A stretch of DNA of 64,000 nucleotides from contig NC_019862.2 of the NCBI RefSeq assembly GCF_002234675.1, forward strand, positions 18,933,514 to 18,997,513. Reading direction: 5' to 3'. A program made the position numbers and the translations under genes. Shown here one piece after another: positions 3,001-60,522 of this stretch. The notes below the pieces were generated by a model. The model was not told where the DNA came from and ran no database searches. It was given only the letters and a program-made list of their open reading frames with translations. Source of the DNA: Oryzias latipes (taxonomy: Eukaryota > Chordata > Actinopteri > Beloniformes > Adrianichthyidae). The first letter of the stretch is position 1; each line of letters starts with the position of its first letter.

Positions 3001-3942
3001 TCTGCACATCAACAGGCTATATAAGAGGTCCTGCTTTTAGCTGGAACACTGACTTTATTTAGGAAATGAGGCAAATCTGGCTGGTTCTGAGAGTGGTCAA
3101 ATGATCAAAGATCAAGGCAGATGGCAATCACCGTTTCTACAGTCGGAGCTGAAGCCTTGAGAAAATAGTTGGACAATGTGACCCTTCACAGACTCCACCA
3201 ATACAGTTCAAGTTGAATACGAAGCACCATTGTCATTGACAAAGGATTCTAACAAAGTCGAGTCATGAGGCATACAGTGACCCATTTAGGAGGGAAAAAC
3301 AGTTTCATCCTGGGTCACTGATCTCACAGGCATGCAGGTGTCATGCTATCTGAGTCCAAGAGGAACTTGAATGCTGAAGTCGGTTGGCTGTGTGCACCTC
3401 TGATCGGGTCCAGAGGGACACAGCGGGAGGATGAGAGGAAGGAAGAGGGGGAGGTATGAGAGGAACACCGGGGAAAAGTTTCCAACAAAGTCTATGCTTG
3501 TAAATATTTCACTAGAAGTCATGCACTACATCCTATGCAACTGTTTTTTGCATTACGTTGGTAAAAGTGCTTTGGTAGTGGTCATCTCCTAATTTCTGTT
3601 TACTCCTTTGACAGTTTCACTCACAAATTAACAGCATTTTACCTCTTTTGTTTTTTTTTAAAATTGCACAGTAACATCTGGACAAAATAATGAAACCCTG
3701 TCATTTCTGAAGTATCCTGCTCCTCCACCGCCACCCAAAAGTAATTCTGTCTTTCTAATTAAGCCTCCAGATTTCTTTAAGCTTTGAAAAGTTACAATGG
3801 AAAGTGTCTAAACACTCCCCACACATATGCAGTCGGCTTCTTTCCAACAGCTGCAGCCAGGCTTCATGAAGACAAGGACAAAACGGGAATTACGCAATCC
3901 AGCTGTGTGTGCATACGGTCCCCGAGAAGGACCATATTAATG

Positions 3943-19200: not shown

Positions 19201-22200
19201 TCGATGAAGTTGTGGAAACCCCCCTTGAAGCCAATGGGAAGCCATTTGCACAAGTGTCCATCAAATGTGGGATATACCAAGGTGATGCTCTGTCCCCACT
19301 ACTGTTCTGCATAGGTCTGAACTCCTTCAGCCAAATAATCACCAAGACTTGCTATGGATACCGACTCAGAAATGGGGCCAACATCAGTCACCTCCTCTAC
19401 ATGGATGACATCAAGCTATATACTAAGAGCGAGCGTGACATTGACTCCCTGATCCACCTCACCAGGATCTACAGTACTGACATTGGGATGGTGACAGAGA
19501 GGCAAGGTAGTCCACACAGGAGGGGTCTCACTCCCAGAAGGAACAATAGCAGACATTGAGGACAGTTACAAGTACCTTGGAATTCCACAGGCAAATGACA
19601 ACCTGGAAGCTGCAACAGCAGCTTTTTATGAGCTCATAGATAATCTCAAGGTTAAACTCTTATAGAACACCTGAGTTATAAAACATGAGTACATATGAAC
19701 AGAAGTGGGTTGTAACAAATTTCCTTTGAACTAAAAAACTTGTTTGTAAAAAATATTTACACTCTTCCAAGTAGTTTTTTTGACAAAATACTTTTTCCGT
19801 TTATTCAAGTAGATAACCTACTGCAGTAATCCCACTTTGTTTTAAATTGTCTTGTAATTTATATATTTTAATTTTACTTTTGTCCTATTTCATTCATGGG
19901 ATATTCAATTAAATCAGTGGAATATGAGTTTTGGCAGTTATTTATATAAAAAAGTAAACATTGGCCCGTGTAAAATAACTCAGCTCTGACTGGACCACCA
20001 CACAAAAGCCACAGTTGCATCTGCAACAAATGTCAATGTTGTTAAGATGTGGAGGGATGTTGAAATCTGAGGAAATGATGACAATCTTGTTTTAAATTTT
20101 CTTCAATGAAGAAAATAATTGTCTGTATTGTTATTAGTAATAGGCCTGGTCATAAATAGTTGGTCAGTTGTGGATACTGGCAGAAAGAATGGAAACAGGA
20201 GGAGGTTTCTTTTCATTTCAGCATCTGCAAATACGTTTTACAGTTGTTCAATACTTTATGACTTTAAAGGTGGCTGTGGTGTGTGGTTCCTGCACCGCGG
20301 GTGGAGCATACATCCCAACCATGGCAGAAGAGGCGGTGATGGTGCATCGGATAGGCACAATATTCTTGGGAGGACCCCCACTGGTCAAAGCCGCTACAGG
20401 GGAGGAGGTGACGCCAGAAGAGCTGGGAGGAGCCAGGCTTCATGCTGAGTGAGTCCATCAGCAAAACTCAAAGAGGCAGAAATGTTCATCCACCTGTTGA
20501 AGCGCAAAATGTTTTGTTTTCTCCCCCCACCTTCCAAGGGTGAGTGGCTGTGTGGATCATTTTGCGTGGGAGGAGAAAGAAGCATTCGACTACACAAAAA
20601 ACATCATATCCACCTTCAACTTCCAACTGCCGCATGAAGAGGAGGACAGCACCAGGAGGAAGGCAGCGGAGGAGCCTTTGTACGCTTCAGAGGAGCTCAT
20701 GGGGCTCGCTCCTCGCAGTTATAACTACAGTCTGGATGCTAAAATGGTACGTCAATCCAAAAAAAAACCCACAAAAGATGTGTCTTTTTAAATCTTGTTA
20801 AGGTAATCCTGTGAAAATGTTTGATTTATTTGTTTTTATTTCTGATTTGTCCAGATAGTTAGTCGCCTCACAGATGGCAGCCGCTTTCAAGAGTTCAAAG
20901 CTCTATATGGTACCACCCTCATCTCTGGCTTTGCAAAGATCCATGGGTAAAAGTCACAGGCACACACATCTATACTAAACACTCTTGATTATCTATTCAA
21001 CTAAAATGTAGGGGGCGCTGTAGTCATGAGGGCACAAAGAATCACGTTTCATCAAAAACGAGCTGTAAGGAACTGACCAGCTTTCCTTTTTAGTGCTCCT
21101 TATCATTTCAATAGCATAGTGCACATTTTTTTTATTGTTTTTGTTCATTATAAATGTCCACTACATGTTGAACTTTTTTCACTTGTTTTCTTATGCAGAT
21201 ATTTTTACAATTGACTTCATGACTTAAAATTCTTTATGTTTTTGTTTAATATCAGGAGGATTTTTTTTACAGATGCATATGCACATCCATACAGTAGAAA
21301 GGTGGCTGCTTTTTTTGGTTTATGGAGCAAATAACAAACTTTTAGGCCTTTTTTTTTCTAAATTAGTCATATGAATATGTTGCTTTTCTGAGATAAATCT
21401 AATTTTATATTTTGAAAGATGTTCAAACAACATAACTTTACAGGAAAAAATGTGAAATTTTTAAGAAAGATGGCTGATTTTTCTTCTTCTTGCTTTTAAG
21501 CCATCTGGTGGGAATAGTCGCCAATAACGGCGTGCTGTCATATGAGGCTGCTCTGAAAGGAAGCCACTTCATCCAGCTCTGCGACCAGAGGGACGTCCCA
21601 CTGATCTTCCTCCAGAACACGGCGCCTAGCGGAGCGCTGACGCTGTCAACAAAGCAGGTACTTCGGCAAATTGAAGCATAAACAAAAAAAGGAAAGTAAA
21701 AGAAATGGAACGATGGTCTCTCTTTCAGGCGGAGATGAACAGCAACTGTCTAAAGGCTCAGGGTTCAATGATGGCAGCTGTGGCATGTGCTTCCGTTCCC
21801 AAAATCACAGTGGTTGTTGGTGGTTCACATGGAGCTGACAGCTACGCGATGGTAGGGGAGTGTAAATGTCCATCTTTTTGGGCAGAAAGTCCAAATTTCA
21901 GGATATGCATAATGCCACGAGTTGACTCTGCACATTTGTCATCTGCAGTGTGGGCGGGCGTTTGAGCCGAACTTTCTGTTCCTGTGGCCCAATGCCAGAG
22001 TGTCCGTGACTGCTCCAGGTCATGTCGGAGCTCTGCTTCCTCCTGATGCTGAGGAGGAGGAGGAGGAGGAGAAGCTGAACAGGAGACTGAAGGAGGAGAG
22101 CTCAGCTTTCTTTTCCTCTGGCAGAATGTGGGACGATGGAGTCATTTTGCCTCAGGACACCAGAAAGGTAAAATACTAGTCAGAAAATGGCTTGAAGGAT

Positions 22201-32553: not shown

Positions 32554-35500
32554 TTAGCTCCTGATGCTGAAAGCTTTGCTTTTCTTGATGGAGAGGAGGG
32601 GAGGCTTGATCTTTGGTCTACTGTCCGTCTTGTTTTCTCGTGCCGAGGATGCAAAACGTCGCTTGTAAATGTCTGGATACTGCTTTTGGAACTGAAGCAA
32701 ACAACACTTGGTCAGTCTTTCAGGAGCAAAGATATGTGTGAATGACAAACTGTAAATTCAGAAAGCTGCAGCCACCAACAAGCATTTCAAACCAAACAAG
32801 CTAAAACAAAGTGTGAAGTTCAATTCTATAAAGGGGTTATAATAACCTGCTTCAGCTTCTTGCGTCTGTCCTTCTCACTTATGTTCTGATCAGTAAGCAG
32901 GATCTCCAGCAGCTCCTCCATGGCTTTCTGAGAGGAAGTTAGCTTTTGCTCTTCAAACTCAGCGCCGCTTATTTGGTGACAAAATGTGTACATGGGCACT
33001 GGAATACAAACGTCCTCCCCGCTCTCAGGTTTGGGAACAGAATCCACAGGGACCTAAACCCAGGATGAGATGTTGATCCCATAAATATGCAGGTATTGCT
33101 GTGTGGTAGGTCTGTACAATATATCACAAATGTATCGTTATCGCAAGATCAAGCTGTGCTATATGCATATGGCATAGGACGGCAAAAATTGCAATAAATG
33201 GTTTCCTTAAATGTGCAACAACAATCTTATGGCAGCGTGAAGTATTTAACGAATTAAATAAATCCATTTGGCCAATCAGATGCAGCCCTTCACGTTGTTG
33301 ACCAATCAGATGGAGCCCTTTTATGTTAGATGTTCGCTTCCTATGTTGACGATAGTCTTTTGGAGTATATTATTAAACTGTTTCAGTGAAATGGAAATTA
33401 TATTTTTGGTTGTTTTGCCATTTGTTCATATACCACAGGTTATATCATCATCCCAATATTGATCACTAATATCCTGTATGGCAAGTTTTCCTCATATTGT
33501 GCAGCCCCACTGTGCGGTAGCCTCGTCTTTTAGATGAACAATCGACAGGAGTACCTGCACGGTGCGCAGATGCTGTATGTGGTCACTGATGGCATTGAGC
33601 AGGTATTCTGGAACTGAGAAGATACTCTGCTGGTGGTCCATTAGAAATGACACCAGTCTGGTAGCCAGCAGCTCATCCAAGTCACACTCTTCAGCGCTGC
33701 TCAGAATACAGCCTGAAAATGTGTGAACCATCTGAGAAACACAAAAAAAATTAATGTATGCAATGTCGTTTAAACAAAAGTCAGCTTCACAGCTTCAAAT
33801 ATTGGTGCATTTCGCATTTGTAAATGCTTAAAAGACAAATGAATCTTTGCGTCGCTCCGGCAGCAGGCTAATCCATCTATCAGGTGGTATTCAGTGGCAG
33901 GTGGGTGGGATATTAGCAGACTTTTCTAAACTATTCCACACAGCTGATGGTGATCCTCTGCTGATGTTGGTTGTGAAGCCTTTGGATGCAATTATGGCTC
34001 AAAGTCTAGCTAAGTGAGTAAAAGGATTCTCTTGTGCACGTTCACCGGCTGGTGAAATGTTTATTTACAAACAATTCATGACCTCGAGACATTTTTTGAT
34101 TGCAGTTTGGGTTTTTAAAAATGTGCATTCCTCACCAACGTCCGAGTGCTAATTGCAGGATGGAGACGAGGCATGTCCACATTCTGGCTGATGCGAGACA
34201 CCATCCTCATGAGAAGCTGCAGCTTCCTGCGAGATGCAGGAGGCAGCAGGAGAGTGCAAAGCTGCAGAGCCTCAATGGCAACACGCTCACACTGAGGCTG
34301 GAGGACACCTATTTGAAGACAGTCACGATGTCGTAAAAAGACAAAAAACGCAACCACAAGGGATGAAAAAACACTTCCTTACTAAATTTAATGCGTGATG
34401 TATTGAACTACAAATTGTTTTTAAGTTGCCAATCTGAATTCACTGAATGTTTACATCAACCTGACGGCTTCCAAGTTGTCTGGAATGATACTGTTGTTTT
34501 ATCAGCAGAACCAGTCAATCTGTGATTCATTTTTCTAGATTATACAAATGATGATGAAAAGACGAGAAGATTAGAGGAAAACTACAGCTACAGCTCTCTG
34601 TAGGGTGAGTGATGTTTCCAGTCAAGCTATAAAATGGAGCATTTTGATTCATGGTGACTGAATCAAAGTGTAAAAAAACAAACAAACAAAAAAAAACACA
34701 CACAAATAACCATCACAAGATATGACAAAATACATTATTAAATATTTTATAAACAGTTATTAAACTCTGACGGACTGAAAAAATGCTTTGCTCTACGGTT
34801 TTCACACAGACTCACAAAGGTTAACCTCTAATAGGAGCCAGAAAGGAAGCTCTCATTAGTAGATGTTAGATGAGGTTATTTTGGCTGGACATGAACAGAG
34901 CAGACAGACAGGTAGAGGAGAGACGACCTTACTGTGCTCAGATTTGGTTTGAAGGAGCTGGAAGTTTCGGTTGGGCGCAAAAACAGGCGGTATGAGCAGG
35001 GAAATGGGTCGCGGCGGCTTGGACACATCCATGGAGCTTTGGCAGCGCCGGACAACAGCAGATGCAGGGAGCATCCTGACGTTAGAGGTGCTGGAGGCTG
35101 GTCTGGGCCCAGAGGGTTGTACTTTGGTTGTAGAAGGAAGAAAGGAGGAGGGGAAAGAATGGTGGGAAGAGAAGGAAGGATGGGAAGCCGAAGAAGAGTT
35201 GTTTGCAGGTGTGTTCACGTTGAGGCAGCTGGTTGATCGACCCTGCCATCTTATCCCATTGACCCTTTTGTCCCCAGTGTGGCTAACAATGTCCAGGCAG
35301 CTGCCGACGCTTTGAGGTCGCAAGGCGCGCGACCTTTGTGAAGCTGAGGAAAACCCTGACAACCCATTATTGGTTAAAGCACCTTCGTGTTTAAAAGTTT
35401 GGGTTCTTAAATCGCATGTTAAGGCCAAGGGATTTTCTCGGGTTGTGATAGTAGGTGTGTCATCCCGGCACATGTCGCTATGGGAACAAGATGCTAAGCT

Positions 35501-38500
35501 GCTGTTGGACTGAAACAGATGTTGCTGCGTGAATGAAGTGGAGTCATCTAGGATGGTTTCTAGCGAGAAACTCCTGGTTTTGGGTCTCCCGGAAACAACT
35601 GTGCTGAGGCTCGTACAGCTGCCTCTTAACTGGCTGCCGGCTTTCTCGGCTTCGAGTCGTGACTGAAGCTTCCGCCCGATCACCTCCCTCATGGGCGATT
35701 CGGTTTCATCGCAGGAGCCCTGCTTCAACAGGGACAGCAGGAGACACTCGGTGGAGCGAAAAGACGACTTGGCTGGAGGAGCAACTGAGGGGAAGTCGGA
35801 ATTCTTTCGCTTCCCTCGCTGAAGCTTACTTGGACCCGTGACGTACCCACAAAACACTGAAAGGAGATGAGCAGAAAGCCAGAGAAACAAGCAGTGCAGG
35901 CAGAGCGTCAGTGCAAGCAAACAGCAGGGGGGAGGGAAACGGGGGAGGGGGTTGTTAGTTCAGACCTGTACATTTACTGCACAACATCAATAAGCAGAAA
36001 ATACAGAGCTGCTTATATTTCAAGCATTCGCCAAACAACCAAAATCAGTTAGAAGTCATAACCCCTGTTAGAAGTCAACTGGACTCACATTAGACACAGC
36101 ATGACAACACAAATGTGCAACCGGCATCCTCTGAAAGTCCAATGATCTGTTTCTAACCTCTCAAAGGCTTAAAAGAGGAAACGCAAACTTACCCAGGACA
36201 TTAATAAACAGTTCATAGAGCTCAAATGTGAGCAATGGGAGTGGAAGGCTGTAGAAATAGTCAGACACCGTTTTGAAGACGTCTCTTTCAAAGCCGGGAT
36301 AGGAGGGCTGCTCGCTGTCATACTTTGGCCCTGAAAACGAGAAACTGACAGCTTGAAATCCAGAACAAATGAACAAAAAAAGTCTACTTAACTGCTTTAG
36401 GAAAGACGTTTTAACACTAGCTAATGATAAATACAGAAGTGAGTTTAAAGTCCTGCTATGAGTTGACACATTACTTAATGATTTGTAAGCGAAATACCCG
36501 TCAGATCTAGGAACGACGCAGAAAGCAATCAGCTGGTAGAAGCAGCAGGGTGAAGCTGCTTTTAGCTGCACAACCTGGTGAGCTCACATTTCCAGTTTCT
36601 GTATTTCAGTCCAAACATCAAATAGTGCTCTCATCGAATGCATTTTTCAACTATTGCACTCACATTTTACCATTATTTGTTTATTATATTTAATTGGCAC
36701 ACAATTTTCTTGTATGCGGCTAAAGCGTTGGATTTCCCATCAAGCCAGAGCTGCCCTATCCTGGGCGTCTGGGTCTACCACCCTGCATGTTATCCAGCTC
36801 TCCCTTCTGACTTGGAGCTCAGGTGTGTTCCGTCAATCAGAATAAGGAAACACCTGAATCAGCTGATCAGCAGAAAGCAGTGCAAGAAGAGCTGGAAAAC
36901 AGGCAGGGTGAAAAAGGGACAAAAGGCCCTGCATCAAAACGTTTTAATTGCCTTTGTGTATAAAAGGGGCTGTTCACCAAAAGAAAAAAATAGCCACGTT
37001 GTCTTGTGTTAATGTAGACAGCAAGAAAACATGGTATATTCAGCAGCATCTGATAAAATGATCCAGTCTGTCTGTGCTCATTTTGATTTCAGACTAGGAA
37101 AACTCCACAGTTTTGCAGAAACCAGGTTAGAAAAATAAAAAGAACTATGGAATGTAAAGAAATTAAGTAATTGCACATATGTGCATACAAAGTTATGGTT
37201 TTGTAAGTGTACAGACAATTTTCAAAGCTGCTGCAAAGCCATTGCACAATGAAATTTAAACAATAGATAGAATTTTAATTGATCCCATGATAGTGAAATT
37301 GATTAAACTACCTACTTTTACTTAACCATGATTTTATTTTAACATTGTCCAAAATTTGTGTTTAAAAACGTTAGACAAAATGTGTTTGTTCATGCATATC
37401 AAAGCTGTACTTACAATTGGCCAGACTTTTCATCGCAGATAAAACCCAGTGAGGAAGGTCGTCTAGAAGAGATGGATCACAAGTTAAGGAACTGCAATAC
37501 GTCTGTTTTTGGAAAGTATTTTTAAATATTTTTTTAAGGTAAAAAAGAGAAAACTAGAATGAAATGTATTCATGGATGTCCATATAAATAAATCAAACTA
37601 AATTAGAAATAGTTTGAATTGTGAACTAATGAATTTAATTGATTACTATATTTTGGCAGTACTGTATTAACCAGCACTACTTATTACATCAAGTTTAACA
37701 GATTTTAATCTATATGTTCCAGATCTAACTTGCTTTCTGCATGTCAGAATATATTATTTCAACAAATTTTTATTATTCAGAAAATTAGGGTTTCTATGTC
37801 AGTTTGTGATGAACCTACTGGTTTTGTCATCCAGAGCAACCACTCCGTGTTTGTTGACTTTGGTCATGTTATGAATGATGTTTTGTGGATTGATGCAGCA
37901 AGGGTCCAAGACCTCATTCAAGGACACAACTCCCAGAATCCTTTGCAAGCTGAAAAACATGAAACAGACTCTGGAAAATTCAAACTCAAAATATGTTTGT
38001 GTCATATCTCTCATAGCTGATTTTATTCCTTTTTTAAATTGATGGCTAATAATGAATTCATACAAAAGTCAGAAAGTTCCAACAGATCTGCCAGGGAAAC
38101 CCCAAAGTGGTTAAAAAAGGGTTTTGTCAGTAAACTGTGAGCTTTGCCTTTTGGCTCAGCTCATTCTTCACTACAATGGATCAATACAGGGACGGCAGTA
38201 CTGCAGCCACTGCATCCATCCACCTTGAAAGAGCCAATTCCCATTCCAGCCGCTTCACACTCGACTGCGATCTCTCCCAGTGGACATTGAAGGTCCTGGT
38301 TTGATGAAGCCAAGTGAACCACAACATCCACAAAAAGGAGAGATGAAGTCCTGCAGTCTTGGCTGCATCTTGAAATAATGTCCATGAAAATTATGAAATA
38401 AACTGGTAACAATAGACATCCCTGCCAGAGACCAACATGCATTGGGGTTTGTAGGTGAGGGCCTGCAGGTAGGGCTTCCTACCAAGGGAGTTCACCGGGC

Positions 38501-40844: not shown

Positions 40845-40916
40845 TGCCGTGACCCGGATTCGAACCGGGGTTGCTGCGGCCACAACGCAGAGTACTAACC
40901 ACTATACGATCACGGC
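40845..40916 (-). tRNA. trnH-GUG: tRNA-His (anticodon GTG)
   Basis: The minus strand folds as a complete 72-nt tRNA. The acceptor stem GCCGTGA pairs with TCACGGC, followed by an A discriminator. The anticodon arm CTGCG-TTGTGGC-CGCAG carries GTG, and the T arm CCCGG-TTCGAAT-CCGGG is perfect. The sequence matches the vertebrate tRNA-His consensus by eye, including the internal promoter A and B boxes. RNA polymerase III should transcribe it toward DEPDC1. It lies between two polymerase II promoters. Confidence 0.97.
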
Positions 40917-41399: not shown

Positions 41400-41549
41400 T
41401 CCCCGTGTGTTGTTGCTGAAGTCTTGGTTGATACTTCGTAGAGTTGGATTTTATCGTTCAGAGTAAATTAGTGTATTTTATTTTAAACCGCAACAAGAAG
41501 AAGAAGTGATATGCTTTTTTAATTTTAAAAGATTTTATTTTTTTAAACA

Positions 41550-44500
41550 ATGGCTGAAGCCGTTGCAGCTCGGCAAGGATTTAGGATCAGTCCCGGGAGG
41601 AGACACGATGCTAACAAGGAGAATAATATTCCGGTTCTGAGTTTGATTCAGTTTTCTAAGCCTCCTTTTGTGACATTCGGAACCGTTAAGTTGGGGACCT
41701 CGAAGTCGGCTGTGTTGCGTATTGAAAACCCAACCGAGGACGTAGAAGCAGACGTAACAGTTGAGAAGATCGCATCGACTAAAGGCTTCTCTGTCAACCA
41801 CAACAGGTTTACCATTGAGGTAAGTGTAATATATGATTGGATTTTCATATTTCTTTGGTTTATGTTTGACTAAACAGGTATTACATCAAAACCTCGCATA
41901 TAATAAAACACTCTCTATCAAGGCACTTTTTTTCAAACGTTCAAACTTTTTTTTGTCATTAATAAATTCATATAGTCAATTATATAAATGCTTAAAATAA
42001 ATAAAGGGAGTTTAAACCCAATCCATCCTTTTTGACAATTTCCTCAATTTTTGTAGTTTATATATTATAGAAATCTCATTAAAGCTAAATATTGTGTGCA
42101 TTTATTTTGTCTATTTGACTGAGTGCTTCTAACTGTTCCTTTGTGTTTGTAGCCTGAGGGATCATTTACTTTGACCATCACCTGGACCCCAACTGAGGAA
42201 GGTGGAATCAGGGAGCTTATTGTTGTCAACGCCAATGGGATCCTTAAACACCAGGCTGTCCTTCTGGGGAAAGCGGAAGCAACAAAGAAAAAGAAGGTAC
42301 ATTTTCTCAATACCTGTTTTTTTTGAATGTATGTTTTGGTAGTTTGCTGGTACTGAGGAGAGCAAGTGACTACTTAAAACAAATTAAGGGTTTTTCACTT
42401 TTCTTTTGGTTCAATTGCTGCACATTTTGTGTTTCAGAAAAGCCTATGGGACACAATCAAAAAGAAAAATGGAGAAGGCACTAAAACATCAAAAGCAAAG
42501 AAAGTGGACCCTCCACTAAAGATGGCTGCCAACAAAACCTTTCAAGTGTCCCGGACGCCTCAGTACCAGCGAGATAAGGCGTCTAGCCCGCTCGCGTCGC
42601 TGAACGCTAGAAAAGCTGTCAGGGAGAGGTCCATCTCGAACAACTACAACCACGTGGAGAGCAACTCCCTGATACAAGAGGACAGGAAACCTTTGCACAC
42701 CAGGCAACTGGCTGTGACTGTTTGGGATTCTGAGGCGGTTCATCCTCTTCAGAAAAACTCCCCTGTGGTTCTACTTGTTCCAGCCGGATCGAGCAACCCG
42801 TGCTCCAGTCTGGGTTCCCCACCAGAAAAATGCGAAAACAAAGATCTTGCTAAAATTTTAAACCAGACTCTGTCACCCATCGGGACACCAGAAAGGTTTA
42901 AGAAGCTTATGCCTCGTATTCAGTCAGAGAGTCCTCCTCCTGCTTCTGCAAAACCCGATACTGACAGTGTGTCAACTGGAGAGCCCGTCGTGTCACTGAG
43001 GGAAGCGCTGGCCGTCATTGGCTCTGATTTGAGCCAAATTTACACCAGCCCTCGGGAGATAAGTTCCAGCTGCGAGTATTCTGACTCGCTGGAATCAAAG
43101 GGTGGGAGATCTGAGAACGATGACCCCAGGGCAATACCCGACAGCCCAGAACTGCCCGAGTTCAACGAGCAAAGACTTACGTTCTTTGTCAGTAAAAAGT
43201 CTACGACTTCAGACGACCACAAGACTGTAGAAAAGGTTAAAAAGACTACTTTTACATCGGCCACAGTCATTAAAAGCAAGGCATCAGGGGATTCAAATGG
43301 CTGGAGTGGTCGAAAAATAAGGAAATCTCGGCGAAGGCTTTTGGAGAAATCTCTTGAGTTGTCTGGCAGCAGCGGTCAGAGCGAGTCTGGACCGGACACT
43401 CCAAACCTGCCTGTGATAGCTGCTGACACAGGAGCTTCTCTGATTCATGAAAAGCATGAAATAACAGAGTTTGCCTCTTCCAGTTCAACGCCAAGGCCTC
43501 GCACCTCATCACCCCCCATCGCCTTCCCCATCTCCTCCCCTATTTGTATTGCCCTGTCACACACCTCCATCTCAGCCAGCCCTTTGCCTCCTGCAGCACC
43601 TTCTCCCATCATGTTTGCCATCGCCTCCTCACCACCCGTGGGCTCATCTTCACCTCTTCATCCCAGTCTTCTACCGAGCTACCAGCAGTCTGTTCCTGCC
43701 ACTCCATCCGTCCACGAAGACTCGTTCCCCGTTCATGTGGCAGCAATATGCAAGAAGAGAAAGAGTGAGGAGCATTTGAAATGTGACAGGAAGTTTGAGG
43801 ATCCTGGGAAACCAGATCAGGGTAAACGAAGCAGGGTGGTGACCGCAAAACTGGAACCTCCAAGATCAGTCCGGGACAGGACGAGTAACGCACAGAGGCA
43901 AAGAGCAACAGGTTAGTTCATACACCTTCGTGATGATGGGAGTTTGTTGAATGATTTGGGCCTTTTTAGACAGTGGATTGGTGCTCATGGTGTTTCTCCA
44001 TGTGCACCAAGTTCACTGCTTGTTGATTAAATCTCTAATTTATACCTGCAACTACTGACAATGTGCATCAGTAGATGTAACATGCACTCAGAGGGGAGTT
44101 AGATCCTCTACTTATACAAGTCTGAAGAAATGACAAACCACACATTTTAAACATTTATTCAGATAATCAGAAATCCATTTGTTGTTTTTGTATATTTTAT
44201 TTTGATTCTCCAATTGTACACAAAATATGGTACATATCCTGATGCTCAAACAGCATTTTAATCGGGATATGTAAACAACTTTAGACAATTGTAAACGAAT
44301 CAGCCAGCTTTCCCATTAGTGCAGATGTACGAAGTTATTTCTTTATTCCTTTTTCAAATTCACTTAAAACATGTACTATTTTTCTTTTTTGAGAAGTAGG
44401 AAATAGTTTTTTTTTAATATTTATTAGTTTAGTTGGTTGTTTTTTGCTTTACATATGTGTTAAATCGAACTTTTTGCGCACTTTTCCTGTTATTTATCTT

Positions 44501-48126: not shown

Positions 48127-51100
48127 GGTCTTTCAGATCTTGAGTAACTGTTTAATTTTTAGGTTTACAGTGAATCTTCTGCTCTTTCAAAGAGACTAGC
48201 TTTAGTCATTGAATGTAGTTTTGTTCTAGCCTGTCAGAGTTTGCTATATATTCCTTACTCTTTTTCCTTTTTTTATAGCGTCATTATCTCACCGGTGACT
48301 AACGATTATCCACCATTAGGATTCAAAGAGGTTCATTGTGTCTATAAAATTATACTGCGTATTTAATTTATTTTTTATCAGACACCGGTTTGTTTTGTAA
48401 TGTAAAACGTACCGACATGTTTCGGTGGAATGTCTTCCACTTTCATCAGGGTCGTCATTAGGTGGTGGTGTGTGACGTCTTTAATAAATGAAGGTGGAAT
48501 ACATTCCACCGAAACATGTCGGTACATTTTACTTTACAAAACAAACCAGTGTCTGATAAAAAAATAAATGAAATACGCAGTATTCACCATTAGGTTTTCA
48601 AATCTTCCTTTTTAGTCAAAATAGCATCTTGACTCAGAAGTATTGATGTGTTTTCAAAGCATTAAGGAAAAAAAAGAACAGCTTTTGAAAAGTTGATGTT
48701 TCCTGCAGGCGTGTGATGGAACTCCTCACTCTTGATTGGAGACTGTCGGCGAAGCTCCGTCTGCCCGCCATCAGCCGCCTGCAGAAGATCCACAACGTTG
48801 ACCTCGCCCTGCAGGTGCTGAAAGCCAAAGGAATTGACCTCAAGGATGAACATGGTAACACGGAGCTCATTTGTTTTTTTTTTGGTTTAGTATATTAACC
48901 TTCTGATTGTAAATAAAAACATTTCTGTCAGTTTTATTGAAAATAAAAATGTTCGTTTTTGTTGATGTTTCTTAAATTGTTTTCTAGGTTCCATCATTGA
49001 CTCCAGGGACATTGTAGATGGACATCGAGAGAAGACACTGAGCCTCCTGTGGAAAATCATCTTCGCATTCCATGTGTGTATCTTTTTTGTGTGTTGGCAT
49101 TCTTGTATTTTTTTTTTGTTTACCAAGAAGATTTATGCTCTTTTATTTCATGAATCTGTGAAGGTGGAAGTGATTCTGGATGAGAATCAGCTCCGTCAGG
49201 AAATCGGTTTCCTGAGGAGAACTCTGAGGACCAAACGGAGGCTGGCTAGAGTGAGGGCCGACCAAGGAATTCAGCCCAGTCCCATGAAAACCAGGGTGTC
49301 GTACGAACACACAAGTACCAAGATTACATTGCTGATGGAGTGGGTCCGTGCAGTGTGTAACTTCTACAACCTGAAGGTAATTTATTTATTTATTGCTTTG
49401 TGGTCCAAAAATGATGAAATACAACCATATAAGGAGGCGCATCTTAAAACCAAGTCTGTATGTCTTCATCTGCAGGTGGAAAACTTCACGGTGATGTTTT
49501 CAGACGGCCGCGTACTCTGCTACCTCATCCACCACTACCACCCCAGCCTCCTGCCGGAGGCTTCCATTAGCCACAGCACCACCCAGACCGTGGAGGGTTC
49601 CCCGACGGGCCGCCTGGAGCTCGACTGTTCAGCCAGCGACTCCGACAGCTCCTTTGACGCGTTAAAAAAAGGCACGAGTAGTAAACGTCTGCAACATCTG
49701 TGGCTCATGAATAAAACATCTCACTGAGATAAATGGAGTGAATCCACACAATAGCTGAGGAATTTGTGGTGGTGTCTTTTATTTTTCCCAGGAGGCCCAG
49801 ATTCTCCATCTGTTGTGTTTAAAGAGCTGCTGGAGAATGAGAAAAGCAACTTCAAGTTGGTCAACAGTGCTGTTGCTTTCTTGGGGGGAGTTCCCGCCAT
49901 GATCAACCTGGCTGACATGTCCAACACCATCCCTGATGAGAAGGTGAGACCAGACGCCAATCTGTTTAAATGTCTGCAGAGCATGGATAACAGGGGAAAG
50001 ATGATTTGTGTTGCTAGGTAGTTTATATATTCAGATTTCTACCGTTGTACACAACTCAGTACTTTTGGGAATCTTCCCAAATCTGTTCCTCTAATGAATG
50101 ACAAACATGTAATGTCCAAATGTCAAAAACGATGTTTGTTGTTGACAAATAACTTTTGGGTTCAAGTCGGTGCTAAGTTGGGTTTTTGAGTGGGGTTTTT
50201 ATCATCAATAAGCAGACCCTGAAATTAAGCATATCTGTAGTATTTTGAAATTTTAAAGGACATTTCTTTGTTTTCACACTTGAGATTTTAAATGCCCTTT
50301 AAGGAGTAAGGTAGATGTGATGCCGGTGGCAACAAAAAATGCTTTTATAAAATAAAATATTGCATTTAAAGTCCCTTTCTTACGGTATCGGGACGTTTTC
50401 TTCACCTTTATGCCTAATGTTAAAATGTTTTGTTCCCAGGTGGTTATGACCTACCTGTCCTTCCTCTGCGCTCGTCTGCTGGACCTGCATAACGAAACCA
50501 GAGCTGCTCGGGTCATTCAAGGGGCCTGGAGGAAATACAGACTGAAGAAAGATCTGCAGCTTTATGAGGTTTGTCCTTTTGTCTTTGTTCTGTTAGGATA
50601 AAGTTAGCTTAAGCTACACAATTTCTGTTTTGCTAAAAATTAAAAACAAGAAAACAGGGTTATGATTTTTTTTTTGTCATCTCTTTTATTATTTTATAAT
50701 ATCCCTTGTTTTCTAACATTTTACATTTGAAGATTCAGGTAAAAATAGTTATTCTGGCTTCAACAAAAGTTGCAATTTTTTTTATTTAAAAAACTTTACG
50801 TTTTTTATGAAGAAATCAGTTTTCAATGAAGTTTGGTCAGTAAAAGAAAACACATTTAAAAAGGGACAGACTTGTTTCTACTGGAAGACCAAAAATATAG
50901 CTAAAATTTAATCCATATATTGAGAAAATCCAGTTTTAATTGCACATTTTTGTTTGGATACAGGAAAGGAACAAAGCTGCTTTAAAGATCCAGCTTATGG
51001 TGAGACGTTTTCTACAGAAGAGAAGAGCTGCGAGGCGAGCTCAGGCTGCAGTCCTCATTCAGTCTGCCTGGAGGGGCTTTTTAGCCCGCAAAATTCTGAG

Positions 51101-54100
51101 GATGCAGAAAGAGGCTCTGCTGCGGGCTGTGCAGCACGAAGCGGCAACCATTATCCAGGTAGGATTGGAAGGAGCTGAACATTATATCAGCTGTTAGTAA
51201 AATCTAGAATTCAGAGGCATTAAAGTTGCTATTTTTTTAATTTTTATTCTTTCTTCAACTTTGGGTTTTATCTCATGTATACAGGCTCATTGGAGGATGT
51301 TTTCTGCCTTCAAGGCTTACAACCAGCTCAGATATTACACAGTGTCAGTCCAAGCCCAATGGAGGATGAGGAGGGCAGCTGCAACTTATGGCAAAGTCTG
51401 CAGGGCGGTCCGAGTCCTCCAGAAGTACTCACGAGCTTGGGCTCTCTCCAGAAAGCAGCGGGACCGTTACCTCCTTCTCAGGAGCTCTGTGGTCAAACTG
51501 CAAAGAGCTTTTAGGAGATGGAAAGCTACAAAAATTGAAGAAGAAAATCGTGCGGCCGTGGTGATACAAGCTGCTTTTAAGAAGTGGTACAGCCACAGGA
51601 TGGCGACAAAATCCGCTGCCGCCGTCAGAATCCAGTCCTGGTTCCGAATGCAGGTGTGCCATCGTGATTACAGCCAGATCAGGAGAAGCGCTGTTCTTAT
51701 TCAAGCTTACCATAGGGGCCAAGTGCAGAGGCGGCGGTTTCAGACGCTGAAGCTGCAGCATGACTCTGCTGTTGTCATTCAAAGGGCCTTCAGGGGCCAC
51801 GTTGTGAGGAAGCAGGTGCTGGAGATGAGGCAGGCAGCAGTTGTGATCCAGCAGCGCTTTCGGGCTTCTGTGAAAAGAAATGCGCAAAGGAGAGCGTTTT
51901 TGACGATGAGATGCGCGGCTGTTGCCATGCAGGCAGTATTTCGTGGAAAGAAGGCCCGAGAGCTGCTAAAAAAGCAACATGAGGCAGCAACGGTGATCCA
52001 GGCAGCATTTAGGGAGCGTGCTGCTCGAAAGAAGTACCTCGCCTTGAGAAAGGCGGCTATTAGGGTACAACGCAGGTACAGAGCTACCGTTCTGGCTCGC
52101 AAGACTAAGACGCAATATTTTGCTTTGAGGAAGGCCGCCCTCGTTTTACAGGCCAGCTGGCGAGGCAGAGCTGACAGGAAGAAAATCGAAATGTGGCATC
52201 GGTGTGCAACTTTGATACAGGCTTCTTATCGACGACACAGAATCCATGCAGAGTTCAGATCCAAGAAGGGAGCAGCTCTTGTCATTCAGCGTCGCTACAG
52301 AGCTTTTGTTGCTGGGAAAGACATAAGGGGAAAATTCTTACAGAAGAGAGCAGCTTCCATAGCTCTTCAAGCTGGATTCAGAGGCATGAGAGTGAGATCG
52401 GAACTCAAGAGGAAGCACCAAGCTGCAACTGTCATTCAGTCTTGGATTAGAAGGTTTTTGTGTGAGAAAAGATACTTCTTGATGCAGTGTGCAGCAATTA
52501 TCATCCAGTCGAGGTACAGAGCTCTTCTGCTGTGCAGGGCATCACAAAAGGAGTTCAGAAAGCAAAAGCAGGCTGCCATTAAGATACAAGCCGTGTTCAG
52601 GGGGCTCAGAGTGAGGCAGGAGCACCGGAAGAGGATTGCTGCTGCCACAGCTATTCAAGCTCACTTCAGGATGTACAAAATGCGCATGGCTTACCTAGCT
52701 GCCAAGTTTGCTGCCATTATTATTCAGGAGCGCTACAGGGCCAAAAAGCTCCGGGATCAAGAGCGGCAACGCTACAAAAGAATCAAATCTGCCGCTGTAG
52801 TGATCCAGGCAGCATATCGAGGATGCATGGTCAGGAGGAGGATGGCAGAGCGCCATCGAGCTGCAGCAATCATACAGAGAATGTTTCTGACTATCCAGGC
52901 CAGAAAGCAATTCCTCAAACTCAAGTCTGTAGCTCTGATCTGTCAACGGAGGTACAGAGCTCTGAGCCTGGCAAGAAAATTCCACCTGGATTATCTGTCA
53001 AAGCGCAGGGCAGTTGTTTGTTTGCAGGCGGCTTGTAGAGGATACTTGGTCAGAAAGCAGCTGCATGTCAGACAAAGAGCTGCTGTGATTATTCAGTCTT
53101 ATTTCAGGATGCACCAGAGGAAGACTCGATACAGGAGGCTCCGCTGGGCGTGCAGGGTTGTGCAAGAACGGTGCCGGGCCAACAAAAAGATGAGAGTGGA
53201 CATGCATGCAATGAAGGCCGTGAAAAATGCTGCCATTGTCTTACAATCTGCTTATAGAGGCATGAAGTCCAGGAGAATCCTTCAACAAGAGCATCAAGCT
53301 GCTGCAGTTATCCAGAGATCTTTCAGAGCCCACTGTGAACACAGGAGCTATCTGACCCTAAAGGCCTCCGTTCTGAACATTCAGCGCAGATATCGAGCCA
53401 ACATGGCTGCAAAGAAACAGAAAAGTCAATATCAACAAATCAGAAAAGCAACGATCCTCCTGCAGGCGGTCTACAGAGGTCAACAGGTCAGGAAGGAGGT
53501 TGGACGTTGGCACCGAGCTGCTACTGTGATCCAGTCAGCTTTCAGAAGATACAGAGAGGAGGTCAAGTTCCAGGCCATGCGTCTGTCTGCCACCATCATC
53601 CAAAGGCGCTACAGAGCCCTTCTTCAGGGGAGGACAGACAGAAGGAACTTCTTGAACATGAAATGTTCAGCTGTGGTTCTTCAGGCAGCTTTCAGAGGTC
53701 ATCGTGTGAGAACCGATGTAGCAAACATGCACTCTGCAGCAGTGGTCATTCAAGCCAACTTCAGGAGATTCAGAGAGCAGAAGACCTTCAGGAGACGACG
53801 CTGGGCAGCTGTCGTCCTACAGCAGAGGTTTAGAGCTCAAAAACAGAAACAACATGCAGTCAAACAATATTACAAAGTCAGAAAAGCTGCAGTTTTGCTT
53901 CAAGCTGCTTACAGAGGCATGAAATCCAGAAGAATCCTTCAACAAGAGCATCAAGCTGCTGCAGTTATCCAGAGATCTTTCAGAGCCCACTGTGAACACA
54001 GAAGCTATCTGACCCTAAAGGCCTCCGTTCTGAACATTCAGCGCAGATATCGAGCCAACATGGCTGCAAAGAAACAGAAAAGTCAATATCAACAAATCAG

Positions 54101-57100
54101 AAAAGCAACGATCCTCCTGCAGGCGGTCTACAGAGGTCAACAGGTCAGGAAGGAGGTTGGACGTTGGCACCGAGCTGCTACTGTGATCCAGTCAGCTTTC
54201 AGAAGATACAGAGAGGAGGTCAAGTTCCAGGCCATGCGTCTGTCTGCCACCATCATCCAAAGGCGCTACAGAGCCCTTCTTCAGGGGAGGACAGACAGAA
54301 GGAACTTCTTGAACATGAAATGTTCAGCTGTGGTTCTTCAGGCAGCTTTCCGAGGTCATCGTGTGAGAACCGATGTAGCAAACATGCACTCTGCAGCACT
54401 GGTCATTCAAGCCAACTTCAGGAGATTCAGAGAGCAGAAGACCTTCAGGAGACGACGCTGGGCAGCTGTTGTCCTACAGCAGAGGTTTAGAGCTCAAAAA
54501 CAGAAACGACATGCAGTCAAACAATATCACAAAGTCAGAAAAGCTGCAGTTTTGCTTCAAGCTGCTTATAGAGGCATGAAATCCAGAAGAATCCTTCAAC
54601 AAGAGCATCAAGCTGCTGCAGTTATCCAGAGATCTTTCAGAGCCCACTGTGAACACAGGAGCTATCTGACCCTAAAGGCCTCCGTTCTGAACATTCAGCG
54701 CAGATATCGAGCCAACATGGCTGCAGAGACACAGAAACACCAATATCAACAAATCAGAAAAGCAACAATCCTCCTGCAGGCAGTCTACAGAGGTCAACAG
54801 GTCAGGAAGGAGGTTGGACATTGGCACCAAGCTGCTACTGTGATCCAGTCAGCTTTCAGAAGATACAGAGAGGAGGTCAAGTTCCAGGCCATGCGTCTGT
54901 CTGCCACCATCATCCAAAGACGCTACAGAGCCCTTCTTCAGGGGAGGAGAGACAGAAGGAACTTCTTAAGGATGAAACGTTCAGCTGTGGTTCTTCAGGC
55001 AGCTTTCAGAGGTTATCGTGTGAGAACCGACGTAGCAAACATGCACTCTGCAGCAGTGGTCATTCAGTCTAACTTCAGGAGATTCAGAGAGCAGAAGACC
55101 TTCAGGAGACGACGCTGGGCAGCTGTCGTCCTACAGCAGAGGTTTAGAGCTCAAAAACAGAAACGACATGCAGTCAAACAATATCACAAAGTCAGAAAAG
55201 CTGCAGTTTTGCTTCAAGCTGCTTATAGAGGCATGAAATCCAGAAGAATCCTTCAACAAGAGCATCAAGCTGCTGCAGTTATCCAGAGATCTTTCAGAGC
55301 CCACTGTGAACACAGAAGCTATGTGACCCTAAAGGCCTCCGTTCTGAACATTCAGCGCAGATATCGAGCCAACATGGCTGCAAAGACACAGAAACACCAA
55401 TATCAACAAATCAGAAAAGCAACGATCCTCCTGCAGGCGGTCTACAGAGGTCAACAGGTCAGGAAGGATGTTGGACATTGGCACCGAGCTGCTACTGTGA
55501 TCCAGTCAGCTTTCAGAAGATACAGAGAAGAGGTCAAGTTCCAGGCCATGCGTCTGTCTGCCACCATCATCCAAAGGCGCTACAGAGCCCTTCTTCAGGG
55601 GAGGACAGACAGAAGGAACTTCTTAAGGATGAAACGTTCAGCTGTGGTTCTTCAGGCAGCTTTCAGAGGTCACCGTGTCAGAACCGACGTAGCAAACATG
55701 CACTCTGCAGCACTGGTCATTCAAGCCAACTTCAGGAGATTCAGAGAGCAGAAGACCTTCAGGAGACGACGCTGGGCAGCTGTCGTCCTACAGCAGAGGT
55801 TTAGAGCTCAAAAACAGAAACAAAATGCAGTCAAACAATATCACAAAATCAGAAAAGCTGTAGTTTTGCTTCAAGCTGCTTATAGAGGCATGAAATCCAG
55901 AAGAATCCTTCAACAAGAGCATCAAGCTGCTGCAGTTATCCAGAGATCTTTCAGAGCCCACTGTGAACACAGGAGCTATCTGACCCTAAAGTCCTCGGTT
56001 CTGAAAATTCAGCGCAGATATCGAGCCAACATGGCTGCAAAGACACAGAAACACCAATATCAACAAATCAGAAAAGCAACGATCCTCCTGCAGGCGGTCT
56101 ACAGAGGTCAACAGGTCAGGAAGGAGGTTGGACGCTGGCACCGAGCTGCTACTGTGATCCAGTCAGCTTTCAGAAGATACAGAGAGGAGGTCAAGTTCCA
56201 GGCCATGCGTCTGTCTGCCACCATCATCCAAAGACGCTACAGAGCCCTTCTTCAGGGGAGGAGAGACAGAAGGAACTTCTTGAACATGAAATGTTCTGCT
56301 GTGGTTCTTCAGGCAGCTTTCAGAGGCCATCGTGTGAGAACCGACGTAGCAAACATGCACTCTGCAGCAGTGGTCATTCAAGCCAACTTCAGGAGATTCA
56401 GAGAGCAGAAGACCTTCAGGAGACGACGCTGGGCAGCTGTCGTCCTACAGCAGAGGTTTAGAGCTCAAAAACAGAAACAAAATGCAGTCAAACAATATCA
56501 CAAAGTCAGAAAAGCTGCAGTTTTGCTTCAAGCTGCTTATAGAGGCATGAAATCCAGAAGAATCCTTCAACAAGAGCATCAAGCTGCTGCAGTTATCCAG
56601 AGATCTTTCAGAGCCCACTGTGAACACAGAAGCTATCTGACCCTAAAGGCCTCCGTTCTGAACATTCAGCGCAGATATCGAGCCAACATGGTAGCTAAAG
56701 GAGAAAGGAAAATATACATCCAGAAAAGGCAAGCCACCATGTTAATTCAGAGGAGCTTCAGAGCATGGAAAGCTCGACAACAGGTAAAAAAGTAAAAATA
56801 AGGACTTTTGAAAATATCTTAACTTAATGAATCACTTCTGCAAATGCATCAACTGTTAATAACTGTAAAATGTATCTGCCAGGTTGTGCAAGCAGCACGG
56901 GCTGAGAAGAGACTACGCTTTACAGCTGTGGTCTTCCATCATCTCTGTGCCATGAAGATCCAGAGAGCTTTGAGAGCTCACTGGGCTTTGGAGTCAGCAA
57001 AGAAACAGATCAACTCTGTGGTCACTATTCAGGTACAGCCGTAAACAGTCAATGGTGCCATTTACACATGAAATGTTTAATTGAACAAGCAAGTGTCTCC

Positions 57101-60100
57101 CCCCTCCAGCGATGGCTGAGAGCCAGGCAACAGAGGAGACATTATCTGGAGGAGAGGGGCAAAGTGGTTACCGCTCAGAGAGCTGTCAGGCGCTGGCTCG
57201 CCCATCGCCACAAGGCTGCCTCCGTCATCCAGCTGACTGTCAGGAAGTTCCTCGATGTCAAACGGCAGCAGAGGGTTCAGCGAGGCATTGTGAAGGCTCA
57301 GGCATGGACGTCACATCAAAATGTGAATTCTTGGGATCTCCGGATGAGTTTTTAATGTTTTTTTTTGGTGTTTTGTTACTCTATAGGCTCTCTGGAGAGC
57401 GCACTGCTCCCGCCAACACCACGACAACGCCAAGCTTGTCAAACTAAGACATCGATTACGTCAAATTTCTGCTGAGGTTCGAGAAGAAGACAAACTGTGC
57501 AACAAAACGTCCTCTGCGCTGGATTACCTCCTTCGATATAAACACTTCTCCTACATTCTAGAGGCCCTCCAAAACTTGGGTATGTTTTGACCCTCTGAAT
57601 AAATTAGGATTTTCTGTTACAAGCAGAATTTTGACCTCCCTCTGACCTCCAGCTAAAAGGCTGGAGGTCAGAGGGCACTGTGGTTTTGTCACCATAAGTC
57701 TTTAGTGGACAGCATCACGATCTATGTTTTGTTCCTGCTTTAATGTTGAAATCAGTGTTGACCCCGAGACAAAGGGAACTGAGGAAATGTAGGAAATCCA
57801 GTTCCTCTTATGTGTTGCAATATCAAAACTGGCCTTGTTTTGCTGGGAAAGGCAAAGGTTTATGTTTTAAATTTGTGTTTGTGTGTGCAGAGACAGCCAC
57901 CAGGCTCTCACCTGAGTGCTGTGAGCGGTTAGTGCAAAGCGGAGCCACCAACGTCATCTTCACGCTGATCCGCTGTTGTAACAGAAGTGTCCCCTGTATG
58001 GACGTCATCACCTTCTCCATCCAGATCCTTCTCAACCTCTCAAAGGTATTGAAGATTCTGATCAAGACTTTCTGTCACATGTGGCTCTAATAATTAAATA
58101 AAAAATGGGGAATAATATATATACCGTACATATACAGTGGTGAACAAAATTGTTGGTACCCCTCAGTTAAAGAAAGAAAGTCCCCAATGCTCACTGAAAT
58201 GACTTGAAACGTTCAAAATTAACAATAAATTAAAATTTATTGAAAATTAAACAATCAAACCATTACTTTTGAGTCGTTGATTAACAGAATTGATAAAAAA
58301 AAAACTAATGAAATAGGGCTGGACAAAAATGATGGTAGCCATAACTTAATATTTTGTTGCACAACCTTTTGAGGCAATCACTGCAATTAAACGGTTTCTG
58401 TATTTGTCAATGAGCCTTCTGCACCTGTCCACAGGTATTGTGGCCCACTCCTCATGAGCAAACTGCTCCAGTTGTCTCAGGTTTGACGGGTGTCTTCTCC
58501 AAATGGCATGTTTCAGCTCCTTCCACAGATGTTCAATGGGATTCAGATCTGGGCTCATAGAAGGCCACTTCAGAATAGTCCAACGCTTTTCTCTGAGCCA
58601 TTCTTGGGTGTTTTTGGCTGTGTGTTTTGGATCATTGTCCTGTTGGAAGACCCATGACCTGCGAATGAGACCAAGCTTTCTGAAACTAGGCAGCACATTT
58701 CTATCCAGAATGCCTTGATAATCTTGAGATTTCATTTTACCTTGCACAACTTCAAGACACCCTGTGCCAGATGCAGCAAAGCAGCCCCAAAACAGAACTG
58801 AGGCTCCTCAATGTTTCACAGTAGGGATAGTTTTTTTAATTAAAGATGAGTAAATTGCAGAGCATTTAGAACAGCTTTGGGCTTGAGAAAGGGTCTGCTA
58901 ACATTTCTTAAACTGTAACGATCGACTAAGCCTAGTGGTGGTGCTCACCGACACGTTTAGCCCAAATCTCTTCTGCATTTACAAAAGTTCAATTTCTATG
59001 GAACAAATGTATTTATTTTTTGTTCTACCTGTGGAGTTCACTTTCATTTCCCTAAAATTAGCTTCTCCATTTTTTGTGTGTGTTCACTTTCCCTTCCCCA
59101 AACCAAGTTTAGTTTAGAGTTGGATCTCTGTATATTTGTGGCGAGTTTCTGTTCCTTATGAACTAGTTTTGCAAAGTCTGCACTTTTTAATGTTCAAGTT
59201 AAACTACAACTTGTGGGTTGGTGGGCTTTTTTCAGTTTTTTTTTTTTTTGTTTTGTTTTGTTTCTTGGTTCTTTCTGTCTCCATTTCCGCTTCTGGCCGG
59301 TGATGTCAGGCGCCACCTTGTCTGCTGCCTGTTTCCTCTGACATTTGCTTGTAAATGACTAGATCCGTCTAGTCTAGCTGGGATCTGGCTTAAAACTGCC
59401 ACCGCAAAGCTCCAATATTGCTCGCCGTTTCTGTTGCACCCGTAATGTTAGGCTGGGGTTGTGAGGGGCTGTAAGCTAGGGCGCTAGAGTGTAAATACAT
59501 GGATGATTGAAAGGGTTTCCTCTACTCCAATAGTCCCGTCCACATCTCAGAGGCACATTTCTATTGCACTACTGCCACTCTGCAGAAACTATGTTTTAGA
59601 AAATGACAAGTTTCCAATTTGGGTAAAAACTGCATAATCATAATTTAAAAACCACTGGGAACACAAATGTATCTAAAGCTGATCGGAGCGGAACTTTTCT
59701 TTCCTTGGACAGTTAAAATGGTCACAACTCCACTGAAAACAAATGAAACAATCCAGTTTTTGTTGTCTCATTTGTCCTGTAAATGTTCTGCAGTAGCACA
59801 GTATTTTCTGCAATCCTTTAAAAAAAAGTTTTCATGCCAGGAATATATTTGTATTATCCTCTCATAATTGCTTAATTTCCTTCTCTCATTGTTGTTATCC
59901 CTTGTAGTACCAGAAAACCATAGAGGCTGTGTATTCAGTGGAAAACTCTGTGGAGACTCTCCTGGATTTGCTGCAGAGATACCGAGAGAAGGCGGGGGAT
60001 AAAGTGGCGGAAAAAGGCGGAAGCATCTTCACCAAAGCCTGCTTCCTTCTCGCTCTGCTCCTGCAGGACAAACGGCGTGCTGAGGTCCAGAGCTCGTTCT

Positions 60101-60522
60101 GGAAATCCATTCTTGTTGCCTTTTCACTTGTAGAAAACCAAACCCCCTCTTTGCTCTCCTTAGGCTGTCATGAAGCTGCCTAAAGCCTTGGATAGGATCC
60201 GCAGCATTTACCGCCTCACTGCTCGTAAACACAAGATGGACGCAGAGAGAACCATCACCAAACAGAAAATGAACGCCTCAATAAACGGGAGCTTCTTTGT
60301 TCCAGCAACGCCCCGTAAATCACGCCCTGCACCCAAGTATGTTCAAAGGATGTGCGGAAATAAGTCCAGTTCAGACGGATCGGGTTGTGCACTAACAGCA
60401 GTATTGTTTGTGTTTTTAGGTTTGCGCCAGAGTGGGTCCTCAGAAAGGATAAACTCAAAGACATCGTGGATCCTCTCAGGGCCATTCACATGGTGGCAGA
60501 CACGCTATCCATTGTGTTGTAA
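41550..60522 (+). CDS. aspm: Abnormal spindle-like microcephaly-associated protein (ASPM)
   Basis: Twenty-six exons join in frame to 3,573 residues (human 3,477). ASPM binds spindle poles and microtubule minus ends, with katanin and calmodulin, and controls spindle orientation in neural progenitors. Exons 1-2 encode the ASH domain ([19 protein letters not shown]). Exon 3 (42,438-43,911) encodes a serine/proline-rich disordered region with SLWDTIKKK. Exons 4-9 hold the conserved [21 protein letters not shown] and [18 protein letters not shown] blocks. Exons 10-17 encode the calponin-homology domains ([20 protein letters not shown] at the end). Exon 19 (51,285-56,783, 5,499 bp) is one giant IQ-repeat exon with a recent 657-bp tandem expansion. 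Exons 22-26 encode the armadillo-like C-terminus ([37 protein letters not shown]). The exon 21 donor appears to be GC rather than GT (57,302). AATAAA overlaps the stop codon, with another at 60,607. Confidence 0.97.
47571..47958 (+). mobile_element. tRNA-derived SINE in ASPM intron 11
   Basis: The head GCAGTGGTTAGCGCTCTTG with CCTCACAGCAAGAAGGC is a polymerase III A-box region, and GTTTCAAGTCC is a decayed B box. The body GTGTGGAGTTTGCATGTTC followed by TCCCCGTG is the signature of a very widespread fish SINE (V-SINE/Mermaid-like in my memory). The tail is TAGGCTCCGGCACCC, then GACCCCGAAAGGG, then a short AGAAG-rich end. It looks near full length. The exact family name needs a library search. 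Confidence 0.85.
48090..48128 (+). repeat. T16-G23 homopolymer junction
   Basis: A run of 16 T is followed directly by 23 G in ASPM intron 11. The G run can form a quadruplex in the transcript. Length is likely unstable between individuals and unreliable in assemblies. Confidence 0.9.
48353..48582. repeat. Long inverted repeat (hairpin element), 80-bp arms
   Basis: The left arm (48,353-48,432) starts TACTGCGTATTT and ends GTTTCGGTGGAATG. The right arm (48,502-48,582) is its reverse complement with only a handful of mismatches by eye. The 69-bp spacer includes TTCATCAGGGTCGTC. The two arm tips read TACTGCG and CGCAGTA. This is probably a foldback MITE. The family is not recognised. Confidence 0.8.
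53247..56691 (+). repeat. 657-bp coding tandem repeat within the ASPM IQ exon (five full copies plus partial sixth)
   Basis: The marker [12 protein letters not shown] starts near 53,253 and recurs every 657 bp (DNA markers at 53,261, 53,918, 54,575, 55,232, 55,889 and 56,546). Each unit encodes 219 residues with nine IQ-like motifs of the form (I/L)Q-x3-(Y/F)R. The copies differ at only a few residues. Examples are KKQKSQYQQ in copies 1-2, ETQKHQYQQ in copy 3 and KTQKHQYQQ in copies 4-5. The last partial copy ends at RRYRANM, after which the sequence becomes unique again. The length of 657 is a multiple of three, so the number of units can change without breaking the frame. Confidence 0.97.
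57638..57675. repeat. Perfect 16-bp inverted repeat with 6-nt loop
   Basis: CCCTCTGACCTCCAGC, then TAAAAG, then GCTGGAGGTCAGAGGG in ASPM intron 22. The arms pair without a mismatch and are GC-rich, so the transcript would form a stable hairpin. It is too short for a typical microRNA precursor. Confidence 0.85.
58135..58835 (-). mobile_element. Truncated Tc1-like transposon in ASPM intron 23
   Basis: One terminal repeat starts at 58,135 directly after TA, reading CAGTGGTGAACAAAATTG. The minus strand 58,346-58,747 and a little beyond encodes the C-terminal part of a Tc1 transposase: [13 protein letters not shown], then [19 protein letters not shown], which are the second D and the E of the DD34E triad, and upstream of it [12 protein letters not shown]. 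The N-terminal helix-turn-helix half and the other terminus are missing, and an in-frame TGA lies just before the GASVLFWG block. It is a dead fragment inserted in the intron. Confidence 0.9.
59357..59698 (-). repeat. Unclassified dispersed repeat, copy B
   Basis: This is the reverse-complement partner of 12,666-13,030, in ASPM intron 23. Landmarks on the plus strand, from right to left, are ACCACTGGGAACAC, CACTCTGCAGAAAC, AGGCACATTTC, ATGGATGATTG, GGGGTTGTGAGGGGCT and TTGCTCGCC. See copy A for the comparison. Confidence 0.72.

Follow-up and report, generated by a model that had tools for sequence, protein, structure and literature searches.

A nested expansion of near-identical nine-IQ units within the large IQ exon of medaka ASPM

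IQ motifs form largely helical stretches that bind calmodulin or related light chains, and long arrays of them accompany ASH and calponin-homology (CH) domains in the ASPM/abnormal spindle family (human ASPM, mouse Aspm, fly Asp, and zebrafish aspm). ASPM is a spindle gene with a link to brain size. The number of IQs differs among species (PMC3814721, PMC10047693, PMC374243), with 2 in the worm, 24 in the fly, 60 to 61 in the mouse, and 74 or 81 in the human orthologue (PMC374243, PMC10047693). Most zebrafish IQs are placed in one giant exon (PMC3814721), and human exon 18, which encodes residues 1356 to 2940, is described as skipped in isoform 2 (PMC10436222). The human IQs are also described as forming higher-order repeats (PMC10436222, citing Kouprina et al. 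2005), that is, they are grouped in a repeat above the single motif, as are those of the medaka array described here.

We analyzed a window of 64,000 nucleotides from Oryzias latipes (contig NC_019862.2, positions 18,933,514 to 18,997,513). Judged by its predicted domains, the plus strand of this window holds the ASPM gene, with ASH, CH, and IQ domains in that order, in agreement with the gene identity assigned in the original prediction. The parts of the gene recognized were as follows.

41631 to 41819, plus strand: first part of the ASH domain (ASPM N-terminal microtubule-binding region), from a genome search and Pfam PF15780
42147 to 42257, plus strand: second part of the ASH domain, from the genome search
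48966 to 49724, plus strand: open frame with the calponin-homology exon of ASPM (CH match at about 49467 to 49583), from Pfam PF00307
51285 to 56783, plus strand: large ASPM IQ exon of 5499 bp and 1833 codons, in the same phase at both ends, from its open frame, AG/GT borders, and Pfam IQ

The N-terminal ASH domain matched PF15780 over positions 41547 to 41870 (E value of 1.7e-16), and both of the matching ASH pieces found in the genome lie inside this window. Directly upstream of the ASH exons, there is a tRNA gene on the minus strand (40845 to 40916; Rfam RF00005, 60.9 bits). A CH domain was found (residues 168 to 206 of its frame; E value of 8.7e-8, 32.8 bits against a cutoff of 26 bits). 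Open frames continue 3' of the IQ exon at 57387 to 60180, and a Pfam scan of the downstream frames at 56906, 57085, 57698, 60164, and 61264 gave no match, including none to the HEAT/Armadillo-like region that forms the C-terminal part of ASPM/Asp proteins. Between these downstream frames, on the opposite (minus) strand, lies a Tc1/mariner-like transposase fragment (58346 to 58807; Pfam DDE_3, E value of 1e-12). Elsewhere on the minus strand, we noted a 367-residue open frame at 34856 to 35959, with no Pfam or solved-structure match at an E value of 0.01, and another at 18549 to 19298 that is perhaps a retroelement remnant (weak zf-RVT match, E value of 0.0003, 21.8 bits, below the 27.5 cutoff).

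Within the IQ exon, the frame is open across 51201 to 56795, the borders are AG and GT, and the length is an exact multiple of three (3 × 1833), so that skipping would be possible without a frameshift. Pfam IQ (PF00612) scored 451 bits over the exon. Using a score matrix trained on 34 motifs of this same exon, which makes the count an in-sample one, we scored 74 IQs, or 75 when the most permissive of three thresholds was applied; a total of 74 was once counted for the whole human ASPM protein. The first scored motif straddles the exon border, its I-Q letters falling just before 51285; since the upstream frame 50940 to 51194 reads ATIIQ immediately before a GT, this first IQ is likely made by splicing from that frame. 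As many as 48 of the 74 IQs fall within a tandem array that thus supplies about two-thirds of the motifs in the largest ASPM exon, and it is in this concentration in 5.2 near-identical nine-IQ units that the medaka gene differs from the human, mouse, fly, and zebrafish genes. The repeats of the exon are the following.

51777 to 53240, plus strand: diverged IQ array of greater age, in which three IQs make up a period of 73 residues and 219 residues is no better a period, from spacing and shift identity
53247 to 53903, plus strand: unit 1, nine IQs, from the self-match at a shift of 657
53904 to 54560, plus strand: unit 2, differing from unit 1 at 10 of 657 bases, from the same self-match
54561 to 55217, plus strand: unit 3, from the same self-match
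55218 to 55874, plus strand: unit 4, from the same self-match
55875 to 56531, plus strand: unit 5, from the same self-match
56532 to 56690, plus strand: partial unit 6, 159 bp with three IQs, from the same self-match and IQ spacing and scoring

The presence of five near-identical nine-IQ copies arranged head to tail in ASPM is confirmed. When positions 50501 to 57500 were compared with themselves at shifts of 30 to 3599, high identity was confined to a shift of 657 and to multiples of it as far as 3285. The match at a shift of 657 starts near 53247, has no break from 53274 onwards, and reaches its last downstream base at about 56690 to 56694, giving an array of five full units and a 159-bp piece of a sixth (53247 to 56690), which ends one base before the limit first given (56691). 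The full units differ from one another at 10 to 25 of 657 bases and 4 to 13 of 219 residues, with 44 variable columns and no indels, and beyond the partial unit, the sequence continues as a diverged tail (44 of 93 bases match the unit continuation) with one further IQ at 56745. Five 219-residue units and a partial sixth in one exon, nine IQ-like motifs in each full unit (by spacing and motif count), and a phase-neutral unit length (657 bp, frame open throughout) had all been predicted, and all of these features were recovered. A 46-base piece of the unit occurred six times in the window (up to 3 mismatches), a number reached in none of 100 shuffles (mean of 0.00). We reject a chance or noncoding origin of the array. 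In a search of the unit against the 734-Mb genome, which gave at least six matches, all six of those listed fell at this ASPM locus. DM-domain genes gave six matches in the same genome, three of them clustered on contig C9 and none on C1, the expected place of the medaka sex gene. Tandem Repeats Finder, the longest period of which is 500, reported no row at the array, with its period of 657.

The array is nested on a shorter repeat. From 51777 onwards, the spacing between IQs follows a pattern of 23, 23, and 27 residues, that is, a triplet of 73 residues, three of which make up the 219-residue unit; two wider gaps corresponded to motifs missed by a regular expression and recovered by the score matrix. 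Every triplet within the unit opens with a complete IQ (IQxxxRGxxxR, with L, I, or V allowed in first place) followed by two incomplete ones, so three of the nine IQs per unit fit this pattern and six do not. Upstream of the array (51285 to 53246), identity was 0.296 at a shift of 73 residues, 0.272 at 146, and 0.274 at 219, and since the longest shift was no better than 73, the 219-residue level is specific to this expansion. The three 73-residue sub-blocks of a unit share only 24 to 30 of 73 residues, with silent change among them saturated or near saturated, indicating an old origin for the triplets and a young one for the 657-bp units.

The pattern of variation among the units suggests that they have exchanged sequence. 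Among 16 informative sites, 53 of 120 site pairs were in conflict, and at least that many conflicting pairs were seen in no more than 0.05% of 2,000 simulations without exchange under each of four rate settings (a conflicting fraction as high as that observed was reached in 1.0 to 4.0% of them), bearing out the expectation of duplication with some homogenization. Adjacent informative sites conflicted no less than shuffled ones (site-order permutation, P of 0.22 for clustering along the unit), and the data thus delimit no exchange tracts. An identical tract of 348 bp is common to units 1 and 2 (P of 0.005, uncorrected for ten pairs), and none of the other nine pairs had an unusually long one (P of 0.06 to 0.64). 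The match at a shift of 657 covers 4 × 657 + 159 bases, with its left and right edges in different phases. Given that a single crossover would give equal edge phases, we infer further exchange.

In order to describe selection on the copies, we defined the IQ core as 11 residues, so that cores make up 99 of the 219 residues of a unit. Over whole units, dS was 0.067 (0.039 to 0.100) and dN was 0.023, with a ratio of 0.34 (0.19 to 0.63), and the ratio for each of the ten unit pairs ranged from 0.19 to 0.47, never exceeding 1. The cores showed a dS of 0.083 and a dN of 0.005 (dN/dS of ca. 0.06), and the linkers showed values of 0.055 and 0.038 (ca. 0.69). Only 3 of 21 codons with an amino acid change lay in cores compared with 10 of 17 silent-only codons (Fisher P of 0.005, on small numbers), and the avoidance of cores by amino acid changes was also significant given the core share of the unit (binomial P of 0.003). 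By codon position, the variable columns were distributed as 13, 8, and 23 (third-position excess, P of 0.007). Thus, the copies look functional at the sequence level: cores are kept while linkers drift, which points to selection on the predicted light-chain sites, and these sites seem to have been retained in the duplicated units. A comparison of unit 1 with solved structures returned one chain at an E value of ≤0.1, PDB 8of8 chain M (E value of 0.0013; unit residues 49 to 208 aligned with 750 to 909), which is the lever-arm IQ array of myosin-V, a motor protein with six IQs. This likeness is confined to the IQ motif and does not extend to the whole protein.

The original prediction had called the expansion recent. 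This holds relative to the old 73-residue sub-blocks but needs qualifying on the scale of medaka lineages. Between the Japanese lineages Hd-rR and HNI, 2.455% of sites are different (PMC5705604), and the dS between units is ca. 2.7 times this value; fourfold-site divergence (0.035; 0.014 to 0.061) is ca. 1.4 times as high, and its interval spans the lineage figure. By these measures, divergence among the units equals or exceeds that between the two lineages, and we reject the reading of "recent" as implying a polymorphic copy number. With the split dated at ca. 18 million years (My) in the same paper, the array would be about 49 My (dS) or 26 My (fourfold sites) old, and with a split at 3 to 8 My (PMC6615862), it would be about 4 to 22 My by our own scaling. 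These dates are rough because genome-wide single nucleotide polymorphisms are no silent-site clock and exchange lowers dS. They nevertheless make it unlikely that the event is restricted to populations living today, and they are compatible with later changes in copy number. At such an age, variation in the number of copies between individuals should not be taken for granted.

We consider a coding tandem amplification within the large IQ exon of aspm, with later exchange multiplying and partly homogenizing the copies, to be the best account of the array (probability of about 0.8). A 73-residue, three-IQ super-repeat was already in place, and three such repeats as one block (219 residues, nine IQs, and 657 bp) are now found as 5.2 in-frame tandem copies without indels. 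The first duplication may have come from an unequal exchange in which similar three-IQ repeats paired at a distance of three periods; gene conversion or unequal crossing-over among the copies would then account for both multiplication and partial homogenization. An assembly that inflated or collapsed the number of units is very unlikely to explain these data. Although 3.4 kb of near-identical units is difficult for assemblers, the 44 variable columns with their third-position bias, lack of indels, and low dN/dS in the cores are unlike assembly or long-read errors, and Hd-rR, if it is the source, was built from ca. 109-fold PacBio reads with a mean of 6.5 kb, longer than the array, and corrected with short reads (PMC5705604). 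An ancient nine-IQ block that all teleosts share and that concerted evolution has kept uniform seems improbable to us too: the conflicting sites do point to exchange, so that dS gives a minimum age, but the upstream IQs have no 219-residue level above the 73-residue one, and the units differ far less than their sub-blocks do.

As to what maintains the amplified units, we lean slightly towards neutral turnover, in which unequal crossing-over makes copy number drift while purifying selection keeps the frame and the IQ cores and the extra length has no selected effect. The near-neutral linkers and the phase-neutral unit fit this picture, as does the tolerance of very different IQ numbers among ASPM orthologues (PMC374243, PMC10047693), but primate ASPM holds one repeat number (PMC374243), suggesting that the number can be constrained. 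Selection for a longer calmodulin-binding array through a spindle-pole, brain, or germline effect would agree with the conserved cores of the new copies and with a correlation of ASPM size with brain size in few species, reported in the same source; we regard it as doubtful, with dN/dS below 1 in every unit pair.

In the accessible ASPM literature, searched in texts exclusive of supplementary files with queries that named the array only approximately, we found no description of this array, which is a clear new example of the variable IQ number and higher-order IQ repeats known for ASPM. The nested expansion is real and coding, and it appears to be functional. Regarding its effect on ASPM and on the fish, we infer that the product would have a longer IQ segment, predicted to be largely helical and to bind calmodulin or related light chains, which would lengthen the spacer between the microtubule-binding N terminus and the C-terminal domain and raise the light-chain load of the protein. 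It would be a long shot that ASPM array length evolves fast across ricefish, with nine-IQ blocks gained and lost through exchange between copies. Total IQ number would then be held near the level typical of vertebrates even as the motifs themselves turn over, and medaka lineages would differ in unit number with a measurable effect on spindle poles or on brain or germline growth. The contrast between cores and linkers offers within-gene evidence of continued selection on duplicated IQ sites. Arguments over whether ASPM repeat number matters for brain growth have drawn mainly on distantly related species (PMC374243). Inbred strains and genome editing are available in medaka, and a phase-neutral coding array whose units appear to exchange sequence would make unit number alterable within one species.
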